Source: Alteromonas mediterranea DE
Lineage (GTDB): Bacteria > Pseudomonadota > Gammaproteobacteria > Enterobacterales > Alteromonadaceae
DNA: 64,000 nucleotides
Direction of reading: 5' to 3'
Assembly (NCBI RefSeq): GCF_000020585.3
Contig: NC_011138.3
Coordinates: forward strand, 662,388-726,387
Each line of letters begins with the position of its first letter. Within the stretch, counting starts at the first letter, position 1. The notes below the pieces were generated by a model that searched no databases, was not told the DNA's origin, and saw nothing but the letters and a program-made list of their open reading frames with translations. Made by a program: the position numbers and the translations under genes. Below, in pieces: positions 1,812 through 10,671 of this stretch.

Positions 1812-1872
1812 TGACGTGCTCCAATAGATTCACACACCCAGTTAAGAGATAATTATCTCAACTGGAGTGTAT

Positions 1873-2166
1873 ATGAAAACCCGAAAAAGCTACTCGAAAG
1901 AATTCAAACTGGATGCGGTGAGTCTGGTTACAGAACAAAATTACAAGATTACTGAGGCTGCTCGCAGTCTTGGTATCAGTGCCAATATGTTAGGCCGCTG
2001 GCTTAAAGAGCAAGAATCAGAAGGGGCTCACGCATTTCGTGGCAATGGTAAGTTGACGCCCGAGCAGGAAGAAATTCGCCAACTGCGAGCAGAGAATAAG
2101 CGCCTGAAAATGGAGAAAGAGATCTTAAAAAAGGCAACGGTCTTCTTTGCCAAAGAAACCAAGTAA
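1873..2166 (+). CDS. IS3-family transposase OrfA (helix-turn-helix subunit)
   Basis: 97 residues from the ATG at 1873, chosen because GGAG sits 5 nt before it. The N-terminal part (residues about 5-50, [15 protein letters not shown] ... [16 protein letters not shown]) is the HTH_Tnp_1 helix-turn-helix that binds the IS ends. The C-terminal part (about 58-90, [20 protein letters not shown]) is the leucine-zipper coiled coil used for dimerisation. Near its end the run AAAAAAG at 2127-2133 reads A AAA AAG in frame, a classical -1 slippery site for making the OrfAB fusion. Confidence 0.93.
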
Positions 2167-3041
2167 AATACGGTTTCATCACCCAACATAAGAAGACCTG
2201 GCCGATTAGCCTGATGTGCGAGATTCTTGGTGTCAGTCGCTGTAATTACTATAGTGCCGTGCGACGCAAGGAACACATTGAACCGGATCCGCAACATGAT
2301 GAGTTAATTGAGTGGGTACAGAAAGTAGCAGATGCCAGTGACTTTACCTATGGCGTAAGACGTATGAAACGCGCGTTGAATTCGCTTGGTTATCCGGTTG
2401 GAAAACAGCGAACGAGAGCCTTGATGAAAGAAGCTGGAGTGAGCGTCAGACGACGTAGAAAATACAAAGTCACGACTAACAGCGACCATCAGCAACCTGT
2501 CTTCGATAACGTGCTGTCACGCGACTTTGATGCTCAAAAGCCAGACCAGGCGTATGTCTCTGACATTACCTACATCTGGACGCAAGAAGGCTGGCTGTAT
2601 CTGGCCGTAGTGATTGACTTATTCTCACGAAAAATCGTGGGCTGGAGTATGGCATCGCGGATGAATGCCCAGCTTGTGTGTGATGCCTTAACGATGGCTT
2701 TGTGGCAACGTAAACCTAAAGTGGGCCTGATACATCATTCGGATCGCGGCTCTCAATACGCAAGCCGACAATTTAGACAGTTACTGACGCAATACAAGGT
2801 AACAGGTAGCATGAGCAGGAAAGGTGATTGTTGGGACAATGCCGTCGTAGAAAGCTTCTTCGGCACATTGAAACAAGAGCGAGTGCAGTGGCGTCACTAC
2901 CAGAGTCGCCGTGCTGCCCAGCAGGATATTCTGCAATACATCACTATGTTTTATAACAGTCAGCGAATGCACTCATATCTGGATTACAAGAGTCCAAATC
3001 AATATGAGGCTGACATGGCTAACTTACAAAAAGCGGCTTAA
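2133..3041 (+). CDS. IS3-family transposase OrfB (DDE integrase domain, reached by -1 frameshift)
   Basis: The -1 frame is open from the slippery site at 2127-2133 through to the stop at 3041, so OrfAB would be one continuous protein; the first ATG in this frame is at 2214. After an HTH_21 region ([16 protein letters not shown]) comes the rve integrase core. Asp is in YVSDITYIW, Asp in [10 protein letters not shown] and Glu in [13 protein letters not shown], giving an intact DDE triad with the usual IS3 spacing. It cuts and joins DNA during transposition. The frame and motifs are complete, so no sign of decay. Confidence 0.92.
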
Positions 3042-3075: not shown

Positions 3076-3118
3076 CGTCCGAACGACCGAAGGGAGTGAC
3101 TTAAGCGCTTTGTTAGAA
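3076..3118 (-). other. attC site, right part, interrupted by an IS3-family element
   Basis: Starts CGTCCGAACG right after the duplicated ATG, continues through GAAGGGAGTGACTTAAGCGC and ends in the core GTTAGAA. It is the continuation of the half-site at 1745-1811. A split of this kind should prevent the folded single-strand hairpin needed by IntI, unless the IS loops out. Confidence 0.8.
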
Positions 3119-5258: not shown

Positions 5259-5275
5259 TTCCAATCCTTAGAAGC

Positions 5276-5362
5276 ACCTAACACCCGCATAACGGGCAAA
5301 AATACGTAGGCTATAATACCGAGCGAAGCGAAGGGAGCCTACGTGTTTTTGTCCCCAGCGAG
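5276..5362 (-). other. attC site, left part, interrupted by the IS1111-type element
   Basis: Begins ACCTAACACCCGCATAACGG and ends CCCCAGCGAG, where the insertion sequence starts. Joining it to 6698 onward (CGCAGCGAGTG...) restores the usual CCAGCGAGCGCAGCGAGTG arm found in the other sites. It is the attC of the cassette carrying the gene at 6721-6975. Confidence 0.88.
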
Positions 5363-5439
5363 ATAATTGGACTCCCCAACCTAATAGGTTGGTCTAACAT
5401 TTACGTTGTCACACACAAAGGTTAGATAGGAGTCCATCT

Positions 5440-6477
5440 ATGTATAATATGCTCACTGGTGTAGATTTAGCAAAAAAAGAGATCCAGGTTTGTGTCGCCA
5501 AATCGAATAAGATAGTTCGTAATATGCCGATGACGCCCACTGCTTTTTCTAATTGGCTAGCCACTCAAAAACCAATGACAGTTGTTTTTGAAGCGTGTGC
5601 GACGTCAAATTATTGGTATCAATGTGCGCGTGAATACGGGCATGATGCCCGTTTAATATCAGCTAAGCTTGTATCGAATATTCGTCAAAACCAAAAGACT
5701 GATAAGAACGATGCTGAAGCGGTTTTACAGGCATCACAACTTAGTAACGTGAATTTTATTAGCGGGAAGTCTAAGGAGCAGCAGGAGCTTCAATCACTTG
5801 TCCGTATGCATCAACTATCAGTAAAGCATAAAGTTGCTTACGGGAATCAACTCTGTTCGTTACTTTTAGAGTTCAACATTAAGTTGTCACCAACAGATGC
5901 GGGTTTGAACAGTGCAATACAGTCGATATTGGAAGATGCAGAAAATGGATTTAGCGCGATATTCAGAGAGGCATTACACACGGCATGGCATCAATATCTC
6001 AAGAGTATAGAGCTCGTAAAACACTACGAAAAGAGTGTAGCTAGAGCCAGCAGAGCATCAGAAGCTTGCAAAAATCTCATGAAGATAGAAGGTGTTGGCC
6101 CGACAAATGCGGTTAACCTGTACATAGCGCTAGGTTGTTGTGAGTTAGGCGTTTTCAAAAAAGCCCGAGACGCTGCTGCGTGTATCGGTTTAACGCCAAT
6201 ACAACATTCTTCAGGTGGTAAAGTGCGTTTGGGGTCTATAGGTAAAAATATACGGAACTCGTCATTGCGCGCTAACTTGGTCGCAGGTGCGATGTCAGCA
6301 ATAAACCAGGCGGTTAAACGTGATTCGCGAACGAAGAAAGATGAATGGATTAAAGGGCTAGTAGAGCGGAGAGGTAAACGTTGTGCAGCTGTAGCGCTGG
6401 CCAACAAAACAGTTAGAACAGCATTTTCGTTGCTACGCAACGGAACTGATTACAAAGCAGAGCTATTATCTGCTTAG
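5440..6477 (+). CDS. IS110/IS1111-family transposase (DEDD recombinase)
   Basis: 345 residues, ATG with TAGGAG upstream. The N-terminal RuvC-like domain (about 1-150) has the acidic residues in GVDLAKKE, VFEACATS and DKNDAEAV. A coiled-coil linker (about 190-215) leads to the C-terminal Tnp_20 domain, with the helix-hairpin-helix GVGPTNAVNLY and the presumed catalytic Ser in QHSSGGKVRLGSIGK. Full length and uninterrupted. These enzymes work with an RNA encoded in the element and make a circular intermediate. In the IS1111 group that RNA region is 3' of the gene, as here. Confidence 0.95.
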   Translation: MYNMLTGVDLAKKEIQVCVAKSNKIVRNMPMTPTAFSNWLATQKPMTVVFEACATSNYWYQCAREYGHDARLISAKLVSNIRQNQKTDKNDAEAVLQASQLSNVNFISGKSKEQQELQSLVRMHQLSVKHKVAYGNQLCSLLLEFNIKLSPTDAGLNSAIQSILEDAENGFSAIFREALHTAWHQYLKSIELVKHYEKSVARASRASEACKNLMKIEGVGPTNAVNLYIALGCCELGVFKKARDAAACIGLTPIQHSSGGKVRLGSIGKNIRNSSLRANLVAGAMSAINQAVKRDSRTKKDEWIKGLVERRGKRCAAVALANKTVRTAFSLLRNGTDYKAELLSA

Positions 6478-6518
6478 TTTAGTTTTAAGTTAACAACTAA
6501 ATGCGCCATACAAGATAA

Positions 6519-6645
6519 AAATCAGCTTGGTAAGCCAGTGCTGCGCTCAGGGAATAAAAGCCCGCCAGCGAGATGTGGCATCAAGTTCGCGTAAATATCA
6601 TAGAGCCGGGATAGCTTCCCATTATGAGCTCGTACATAAGCACGC
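6519..6645 (+). ncRNA. Candidate bridge/seek RNA of the IS1111-type element
   Basis: In the noncoding tail after the transposase gene I read a two-loop RNA. Loop 1 is enclosed by CTTG (6526-6529) + GCCA (6534-6537) pairing with TGGC (6576-6579) + CAAG (6582-6585), with an inner hairpin GGG/CCC (6550-6552, 6561-6563). Its left side GCTGCGCT (6540-6547) is the reverse complement of AGCGCAGC at the right target (6696-6703). Its right side CCAGCGAG (6565-6572) equals the left target (5355-5362). Loop 2 contains ATTAT (6621-6625), reverse complement of the left IS tip ATAAT, and ACATAAG (6634-6640), identical to the right IS tip. The layout matches known bridge RNAs. Exact ends are not known. Confidence 0.75.
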
Positions 6646-6673
6646 ATTACATCTTGAACGGTAAAAATAGTTG

Positions 6674-6679
6674 TTGACT
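6674..6679 (+). promoter_or_regulatory. Outward -35 element that completes a promoter when the IS ends are joined
   Basis: TTGACT at 6674-6679 near the right end. In a circle, 17 bases (6680-6696) would separate it from GATAAT, formed by G6697 plus the left tip ATAAT (5363-5367). This gives a near-consensus promoter directed into the transposase gene. In the inserted state the -10 is missing. Confidence 0.7.
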
Positions 6680-6697
6680 ATGGGGAGTCCACATAAG

Positions 6698-6726
6698 CGC
6701 AGCGAGTGTTAATGCGTTTGTTATGT
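6698..6726 (-). other. attC site, right part, interrupted by the IS1111-type element
   Basis: CGCAGCGAGTGTTAATGCG followed by TTTGTTATGT. It is the continuation of 5276-5362. The core GTTATGT at 6720-6726 supplies the TAA stop of the gene at 6721-6975. Confidence 0.85.
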
Positions 6727-6975
6727 GACCTTAGCTCGCCGTTTAATGTAAAACACTGTTACACCTAAACACAAAAGCCACGCTATAAACTTTAACAAGA
6801 ACACAAAAGCAAACCAGATAGGCCTGTTTCCAAATGAAACTGTATCAGTTACCCGCAGATTTTGTATTTCTAGATTGATTATTGCGCCCAGTAATTGATG
6901 ACCTAACCAAATCACTAGAAAAAGAGAAATAAGAAACCAGAGTAGATTAACAGTTCCTAATTTTTCGAGCTTCAT
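6721..6975 (-). CDS. Integron cassette gene, two-pass membrane protein
   Basis: 84 residues from the ATG at 6975-6973; the longer frame starts within attC sequence. Two transmembrane segments are clear, about residues 8-30 (NLLWFLISLFLVIWLGHQLLG, written in parts) and 55-78 (WFAFVFLLKFIAWLLCLGVTV), joined by a short polar loop with NLRVTDTVSFGN; the tail KRRAKVT is basic. Family unknown. Its attC is the one disrupted by the IS1111-type element, so the cassette may now be fixed in place. Confidence 0.65.
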   Translation of the reverse strand: MKLEKLGTVNLLWFLISLFLVIWLGHQLLGAIINLEIQNLRVTDTVSFGNRPIWFAFVFLLKFIAWLLCLGVTVFYIKRRAKVT

Positions 6976-9644: not shown

Positions 9645-9702
9645 AAAGTCAGTTATCTCGTTGCGATTTATCAAATAGACTTCTTTTATTTTGGAGTCGA
9701 AT

Positions 9703-10671
9703 ATGAAGTCTCAGTTTATTAAATCCCTGTACGAGCACATGATGCTCAAGCGCTATGCAAAGCGTACTATACAAACCTACATAAACTGGATTTCAGATTA
9801 CATTCGTTTTCACAAATTTCAGCACCCGAAAGATCTCGACGTGTTGCATGTTGAAGCATACCTTACTCATCTATCTACCAAGCGAAAAAATGCGCGGTCT
9901 ACACAAGCCACAGCACTTAATGCATTGGTCTTCCTGTACAACAAGTATTTAGAACAGCCACTCCCTTCTGACATGAATTTTGTAGGAAGCGGAAGGGAAA
10001 GAAAGCTGCCAGTTGTGCTAACCCAGTTAGAAGTAAAAGCATTGCTTGGTAGGGTGCCTACCCATCATTACTTAGCAGTAGCACTTCTTTATGGCAGTGG
10101 CCTTCGATTAATGGAGTGCGTGCGTCTTAGAACGGGAGATATAGACTTCGACTACAAGTGTGTGAGGATTTGGTTTGGGAAAGGGGGCAAGCATCGAGTG
10201 GTAACACTGTCAGAATCACTTATCCCACTTTTAAAAAATCATATCAGTGAAAGTGAAAAACTTTTGCAACGAGATTTGATGGTGCCAGACTTTGCTGGTG
10301 CTTGGATTCCACATGGGTTGAGGAAAAAGTATCAACAGCGCAATAAAACGCTGGAATGGCAGTATTTGTTCCCTGCATCAAAGTTAAGTATCGATCCAGA
10401 AAGCAAGCTATTACGGCGTCATCATATAGATGAAAAACAGATACAACGCGCGGTAAGTCGTGCTTCAAGTGATGCGGGAATAATCAAGCATGTTACGCCT
10501 CACACGCTTCGTCATTCATTTGCTACTCATTTACTGCAATCTGGCGCAGACATCAGAACGGTGCAAGACCAACTAGGTCATGCCGATGTTAGAACCACTC
10601 AAATTTATACCCATATACTTCAACAAGGAGCGAATGGTGTCGTCAGCCCACTTTCTAATTTAGCGTTTTAG
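9703..10671 (+). CDS. intI: Integron integrase IntI (tyrosine recombinase)
   Basis: 322 residues from the ATG at 9703, preferred over an in-frame TTG at 9691 because GGAG sits 6 nt before it. Residues about 1-85 form the SAM-like core-binding domain (YAKRTIQTYINWISDYIRF). The catalytic domain has Arg in GSGLRLMECVRLR, His and Arg in THTLRHSFATH, His in LGHADVRTT and the nucleophile Tyr in TQIYTHIL. The extra segment between (AGAWIPHGLRKKYQQRN ... LEWQYLFPAS) is the IntI-specific insertion that separates integron integrases from XerC/D. It inserts and excises cassettes by attI x attC and attC x attC recombination. Full length and apparently active. Divergent from the cassette array. Confidence 0.96.
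   Translation: MKSQFIKSLYEHMMLKRYAKRTIQTYINWISDYIRFHKFQHPKDLDVLHVEAYLTHLSTKRKNARSTQATALNALVFLYNKYLEQPLPSDMNFVGSGRERKLPVVLTQLEVKALLGRVPTHHYLAVALLYGSGLRLMECVRLRTGDIDFDYKCVRIWFGKGGKHRVVTLSESLIPLLKNHISESEKLLQRDLMVPDFAGAWIPHGLRKKYQQRNKTLEWQYLFPASKLSIDPESKLLRRHHIDEKQIQRAVSRASSDAGIIKHVTPHTLRHSFATHLLQSGADIRTVQDQLGHADVRTTQIYTHILQQGANGVVSPLSNLAF

Follow-up and report, generated by a model that had tools for sequence, protein, structure and literature searches.

A predicted two-loop guide RNA that would steer an IS1111-type element of Alteromonas mediterranea into integron attC sites

Known guide RNA systems and the Alteromonas element

In the bridge RNA of IS621 and the IS110 family, which is organized around a 2-nucleotide (nt) core, the left guide reads one strand and the right guide the other. 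Bridge RNAs have been described for IS110 elements by Durrant and colleagues and are predicted in 93.0% of IS1111 elements, according to PMC11208160. For ISKpn4 and ISPst6, IS1111 elements that target integron attC sites, guide RNAs have been shown by experiment, and RNA derived from the noncoding region, called essential in the abstract of the report (PMC11187229), co-purified with the transposases of ISEc11, ISPa11, ISKpn4, and ISPst6. The subject here is a 64,000-nt window from the 4.48 Mb chromosome of Alteromonas mediterranea DE, in which an IS1111-type insertion sequence (IS) divides an attC of a chromosomal integron array. The tail 3′ of its transposase gene very probably represents a two-loop guide RNA (seekRNA or bridge RNA), predicted from sequence, that would steer the element into integron attC.

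In both its IS1111-type transposase and its attC target, the element resembles the IS1111-attC group (ISKpn4, ISPst6, ISPa25, and ISPa21), whose seekRNAs likewise lie in the downstream noncoding region with the top-strand match 5′ of the bottom-strand match, as described in PMC11187229 and PMC11616780. What may set it apart from this group is its target, which lies ~29 nt within an attC of 116 nt and which the element enters in antisense to the cassettes. With the IS621/IS110 bridge RNA it shares RNA loops that complement target and donor around a core; the RNA of the IS110 group is located in the left end, whereas that of the window element is in the right end, in agreement with PMC11208160 on IS1111. 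The mechanism is already known; what is new is the Alteromonas element, which lands within attC and is backed by natural insertion data with clean bounds. Among the titles and abstracts listed in a literature search, with most subscription papers outside its scope, none dealt with an attC-targeting element of Alteromonas or with guide-target covariation among attC-targeting IS1111 elements. Passages on the IS1111-attC group in later papers give no target letters, and one of these papers, PMC9229058, reports that no IS interrupts attC sites in Shewanella. No recognizable ISKpn4 was present among the 60 listed of 1073 plasmid matches, nor among all 16 matches of a stricter protein search.

Guide segments and their targets

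A single attC (5275–5362 plus 6698–6727) is split by the 1335-bp element, with an AG at either edge. The left target, CCAGCGAG (5355–5362, forward strand), ends in the core AG at 5361–5362; on the right, the core AG and the target CGCAGC together read AGCGCAGC (6696–6703, forward). Within the tail, the right target guide (RTG), GCTGCGCT (6540–6547, forward), is complementary to the top-strand sequence AG-CGCAGC at 6696–6703, and the left target guide (LTG; 6565–6572, forward) reads CCAGCG-AG, which is the top strand left of the core with the core included (5355–5362), and would pair with the bottom strand. As judged from their letters, the two guides would be complementary to opposite strands of the target with the top-strand match first, the arrangement of an IS1111 seekRNA or bridge RNA. 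An earlier note on this DNA had given these letters and positions for both guides and both targets, and they proved exact, as did its left-hand identity of 10 nt, CCAGCGAGAT, which reaches 5364. The AG core that it saw at both junctions is likewise present and can be refined by placing the element body at 5363–6697 (forward), the final two bases of which are the second core AG.

Covariation of guides and targets across relatives

Matches of eight letters are short, and these were originally picked without a control, which leaves room for chance likenesses chosen by eye in a 200-base tail. Relatives of the element were gathered by transposase protein or element DNA, never by guide, and yielded 96 partly overlapping loci (numbered with the prefix L): 57 from genome contigs, 7 from the host genome itself, 7 from a genus search, 15 from an order search, and 10 from plasmid stretches. 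The genus search covered 59 genomes, 8 with a match, and the order search 394 genomes, 8 with a match at E ≤ 1e-90, the host genome being included in both counts. Complete elements, located by both tips with at most 2 mismatches per tip, were found at 74 loci and were lacking at the other 22; because the elements were located by their tips, the likeness of these tips is partly by construction. Two distant matches, L087 and L088, were excluded, neither showing an element with these tips. Fourteen of the 74 elements were dropped as repeats of the flanks and tail of another (among them L066, which repeats L039 of Alteromonas lipotrueae, and L067 and L068, which repeat L008 and L009 of Alteromonas spp.), leaving 60; removal of L030, with a left flank of 10 nt, left 59 insertions in 38 guide families. 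Six non-core letters were compared on each side, and targets were exchanged among families in 20,000 shuffles.

Guides agree with the targets of their own insertions at a mean of 9.90 of 12 letters, compared with 4.58 when shuffled (standard deviation 0.32, maximum 5.81), a value that none of the 20,000 shuffles reached. The left side contributes 4.64 of 6 (1.96 shuffled) and the right side, with the register free by one base, 5.25 of 6 (2.61 shuffled), again with 0 of 20,000 shuffles in each case. The choice among three registers lifts observed and shuffled right-hand values alike, and with the register fixed the right-hand values are 3.74 and 1.59, also with 0 of 20,000 shuffles. A family's own target is the best or tied in 27 of the 38 families when both sides are used, in 20 with the left alone, and in 29 with the right alone.

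When every position of the tail was scanned in both strand senses, with one member per family, only two strong peaks emerged: the left target peaks at 6565 in the identical sense, and the right target at 6540–6541 in the complementary sense. The excesses at the peaks are 2.75 and 2.18, and the best values at any other position are 0.58 and 0.57. Match frequency is 0.77–0.94 at positions −5 to −1 and drops from 0.77 at −5 to 0.43 and 0.15 further out; at +1 to +6 it is 0.82–0.92, raised by the free register, and it drops from 0.87 at +6 to 0.36 and 0.22 beyond. Because the frequency falls beyond −5 and +6, the footprint is taken to be 5 nt + AG + 6 nt, so that natural insertions alone reveal a targeting rule whose boundaries are visible in match frequency. 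Conservation of the guide columns (0.32–0.58) is under the RNA mean of 0.77, and that of the donor guide is above it (0.87–1.0). Chance selection by eye has next to no probability, being refuted by the shuffles, by a position-blind scan that peaks only at the two guides, and by matching that is bounded at the footprint.

Predicted fold, donor guides, and circle junction

The fold predicted by RNAalifold from 38 sequences, one per guide family, consists of a target stem with an inner hairpin and a donor-side hairpin, giving the two-loop structure of a bridge RNA. Covarying pairs delimit the target-binding stem-loop (6525–6586, forward; stems 6525–6530/6581–6586 and 6534–6537/6576–6579), the GGG/CCC hairpin that separates the two target guides (6550–6563, forward; 6550–6552 with 6561–6563), and the donor-side hairpin (6603–6631, forward); the first two are as the earlier note had drawn them. 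Compensatory changes on both sides occur in 18 of 23 RNA pairs and 97.6% of 863 cells are paired, both exceeding all 500 shuffles. Cells with changes on both sides number 150, compared with a shuffle mean of 38 and with at most 25 when the partners are slid, and these slid-partner controls pair in 31–40%. Guide-target covariation and a two-loop structure were checks set beforehand for the reading of the tail as a two-guide RNA, and both favored it.

A second loop carrying copies of the element tips had also been proposed. Its two segments are in place: ATTAT (6621–6625, forward) is the reverse complement of the left tip ATAAT (5363–5367), and ACATAAG (6634–6640, forward) is the same as the right tip (6691–6697). 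The loop calls for a small correction, in that the consensus fold places ACATAAG on the 3′ side of the donor hairpin, outside a closed loop. All six elements with the right tip ATATAAG have ATATAAG in the RNA, and in the other 54 the RNA always reads ACATAAG, with the tip ACATAAG in 52 and a tip one base different in 2. As the six elements fall into two groups of relatives, this change amounts to one or two events, not six.

Joining of the element ends is predicted from sequence to give TTGACT-17-GATAAT, which would form a sigma-70-like promoter only on the excised circle, with its −35 hexamer at 6674–6679 (forward), a 17-nt spacer, and a −10 hexamer composed of 6697 and 5363–5367. Against the −35/−10 consensus, the joined ends reach 10 or 11 of 12 in 53 of 59 insertions; among chromosomal junctions the count is 2 of 117, and among shuffles it is 3 of 295.

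Insertion sites in the host genome and their alternatives

A pattern of the attC arms, with at most three mismatches, matches the host genome 32 times (reversed control, 1), always within clusters at 0.642–0.670, 2.092–2.098, and 2.450–2.457 Mb. The host carries four near-identical copies of the IS, all four of which lie inside these three clusters, in attC of different cassettes, the attC-specific insertion that characterizes the IS1111-attC group. Non-core mismatches to the guides number 1, 0, 0, and 0 at the four occupied sites, and at 32 empty sites they number 0 in one, 1 in five, 2 in nineteen, and 3 in seven (exact permutation P = 4e-4, which is indicative only because the occupied sites represent one attC subtype and may have had a core other than AG before insertion). 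Across the genome, the 14-letter target has no exact uninterrupted copy and 46 copies with one or two mismatches (reversed control, 9). Further support for an RNA programmed for attC, as the earlier note had read it, comes from the eight insertions with the window guide, which match 4–6 of 6 letters on the left and 5–6 of 6 on the right; by eye, attC lies on both sides in seven of these and on the right only in the eighth, L065.

That the occupied host sites are all of one attC subtype is compatible with a different history, in which copies spread as cassette cargo or by duplication of one occupied attC, without a guided insertion at each site. The right flank common to L008 and L009 over all 91 nt compared points the same way, and for that reason these two are probably not independent. 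The flanks of the four host copies, in contrast, are alike only over the length of an attC (26–28 nt right, 81–116 nt left) and differ beyond it, save for further attC-length blocks, and the attC copies themselves differ in places. Because the likeness of the flanks stops at attC length, the four copies lie in different cassettes, and spread as cargo or by duplication is judged very unlikely.

A further possibility is that recognition rests with the transposase itself or is directed at a folded attC hairpin, the guide-like segments being a by-product such as captured target DNA. The insertions of the window guide family all share attC sequence, so that this family alone cannot part guide from structure, and in modeled DNA centroid folds of two uninterrupted sites the target is predicted to be mostly unpaired, in a one-sided stretch bounded by the L′′ box and the central stem. 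Relatives that share tips and fold but carry other guides nevertheless sit at other sequences that match their own guides, and the matching ends at the 13-nt footprint. Within the CTATCG/GCTTCGCT family, no likeness is apparent, target letters aside, between the flanks of L005 and those of L012, or between either of these and the attC-like flanks of L044 and L047. Three host copies of a 65–66%-identical relative (guides CTATCG or TTATCG and GCTTCGCT) lie outside the attC clusters, and their targets agree with the guides in 5 or 6 of 6 letters on the right and in 2–4 of 6 on the left. Recognition by protein or DNA structure, with the guides as by-products, is regarded as highly improbable.

Several observations sit poorly with a guide-directed choice of attC. 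The left guide is loose in part of the family, with 2 or 3 of 6 letters matched in 9 of 59 insertions; the right match is weak even with a free register in L018 and L041 (2 of 6 each) and L037 (3 of 6); and the RTG register is one base off in 17 of 59 insertions. One empty host attC matches all 12 non-core letters, but its core is AA. Near matches outside attC are empty, with 6 of the 46 in clusters and three of the six one-mismatch sites outside, which also favors recognition of the attC itself; because these stay empty, four occupied sites are few for judging specificity. The left flank of L065 is not recognizable as attC. The RNA fold of the single sequence shows no unusual stability (z −1.67) and was replaced by the alignment-based test, and an Rfam scan of the window gave 0 families at the gathering score.

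Landing point within attC and proposed mechanism

The interrupted attC comprises an R′-side part (5275–5362, reverse strand; R′ box 5275–5282), delimited from the sequence and from neighboring uninterrupted attC-like sites, and an R′′-side part (6698–6727, reverse; R′′ box 6720–6727), the boxes being placed by eye. Insertion occurs 29–32 nt from one end of sites of 114–117 nt in six cases (L001, L002, L004, L008, L038, and L039). That this is the R′′ end, and that the element runs antisense to the cassettes, is concluded from the direction of the cassette open reading frames and from the box motifs of attC. The distances, and nothing else, were obtained with a crude attC detector (R′′/R′ boxes plus a stem score) that is blind to orientation. 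As a target classifier this detector was rejected as too weak: 55 of 60 insertions were scanned (5 were skipped for short flanks), L003 was missed, L065 scored below its shuffles, and several true sites were no better than the best shuffle.

Natural guide-target covariation makes a working RNA, read here from matching letters, very likely, and the element likely locates cassette arrays through RNA pairing, the mode established experimentally for other family members. In the mechanism envisaged, the RNA would be made, probably from the excised circle or the transposase transcript, and would bind the DEDD transposase, and the complex would bring the circle junction and an attC together. The guides would pair with 5 nt of the bottom strand to the left of the AG core and with 6 nt of the top strand to its right. 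The target is situated ~29 nt from the R′′ end, in the interval that separates the L′′ box from the central stem, and is read in the cassette-antisense direction; strand exchange at AG would leave an AG at either edge. An array with attC like CCAGCG-AG-CGCAGC would therefore be a landing field in which every landing would split an attC. This suggests how a transposon can exploit a sequence common to many integron cassettes, with likely effects on cassette mobility, and it provides a directly testable prediction together with naturally occurring guide-target pairs of use for a programmable recombinase.

Transposase and element ends

The transposase gene (5440–6477, forward) encodes 345 amino acids with the Pfam domains DEDD_Tnp_IS110 (PF01548, E 7.4e-14) and Transposase_20 (PF02371, E 5.8e-14), and it matches the NCBIfam model transpos_IS110 (NF033542) at 253.8 bits (cut-off 140); a DEDD transposase with these two domains is characteristic of the IS1111 group of the IS110 family. 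The sole solved structure matched by its sequence is the ISCro4 transposase (E 4.6e-4). The noncoding region 3′ of the gene spans 220 nt (6478–6697), compared with only 77 nt on the 5′ side, an IS1111 trait. Subterminal inverted repeats, TGGACTCCCC (5368–5377, forward) and GGGGAGTCCA (6682–6691, forward), are 10 bp long, inside the range of 7–17 bp given for IS1111 in PMC11208160.

Relatives with other guide programs

Variation among relatives is illustrated by L038 (Alteromonas sp. IB21), which has the same tips and fold, a left guide identical to that of the window element, and an attC target, with a different right guide and a transposase only about 52–53% identical in amino acids. At L038:3571–3707, its block of hairpin plus left guide is 0.88 identical to that of the window element, the highest of 515 pairs with transposase identity <0.56, and L075 and L081 are close behind at 0.84; this comparison omitted 8 elements with no open frame of 300 amino acids. 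An exchange of half-guides in L038 is possible on this evidence and is offered only as a lead.

Another program is found in the TAACAAG type (L033, L034, L036, L037, L040, L041, and L042; mostly Vibrio), which has the same tips and fold and left guides TTAACA or CTAACA. These elements insert directly after TAACAAG, in L042 at 10 nt from the end of a 126-nt VCR-like (attC-like) site. Because this type follows TAACAAG and the window element sits inside attC, the clade appears to have two attC programs. At the same VCR-like attC, L042:2434–3722 shows a core AG at the left junction and AA at the right, which suggests strand exchange within a mismatched core.

Taken jointly, these observations allow a tentative reading, plausible but short of probable, in which one transposase clade has repeatedly reprogrammed its guide (38 guide pairs with one fold and one tip pair). 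The attC would then have been reached by different programs, by the TAACAAG type at the R′′ edge and by the Alteromonas element within the site, between stem and L′′ box. This second program would have arisen on two backbones 52% identical, perhaps through half-guide exchange as in L038, and host attC found with all guide letters and an AG core would already all be filled.

Some relatives adjoin other mobile elements. Four Vibrio insertions with guides TCTAGC/CCAAAACA (L026:2428–3747, L090:2428–3747, L093:2428–3747, and L094:784–2103) directly adjoin TTTTGGACAC(C/T)GAGTTAAGTGAG, and in L090 an annotated IS3-family transposase gene follows the element; these relatives may target the ends of IS3-family elements. 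In the guide family AAGATAG-TTGACGCC (L089:2435–3757, L015:686–2006, and L016:2435–3758, the last with GGATAG-TTGTCA), the L089 element adjoins annotated istA/istB of an IS21-type element, so that its target is perhaps a mobile-element end.

Two further loci have composite flanks. In L008:2424–3753 and L009:2424–3752, the left attC halves differ and the right flank is the common one noted above, a pattern suggestive of recombination between two occupied attC by way of the IS. The flanks of L047:2427–3760 resemble parts of two different attC, and its longest open frame is at most 199 amino acids.

The integron array of the window

The integron integrase gene (9691–10671, forward; a TIGR02249 match) stands at the end of the cassette array, which extends to its left and in which minus-strand cassette open reading frames predominate. 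Sites that resemble attC, uninterrupted and of one type, occur at ~1380, 3497, 3858, 4863, 7057, and 7482, and weaker sites are located at 3077 and 8443. Two open reading frames in the array (1867–3041; 99 and 275 amino acids) resemble an IS3-type element by eye and end near the attC-like site at 3077.
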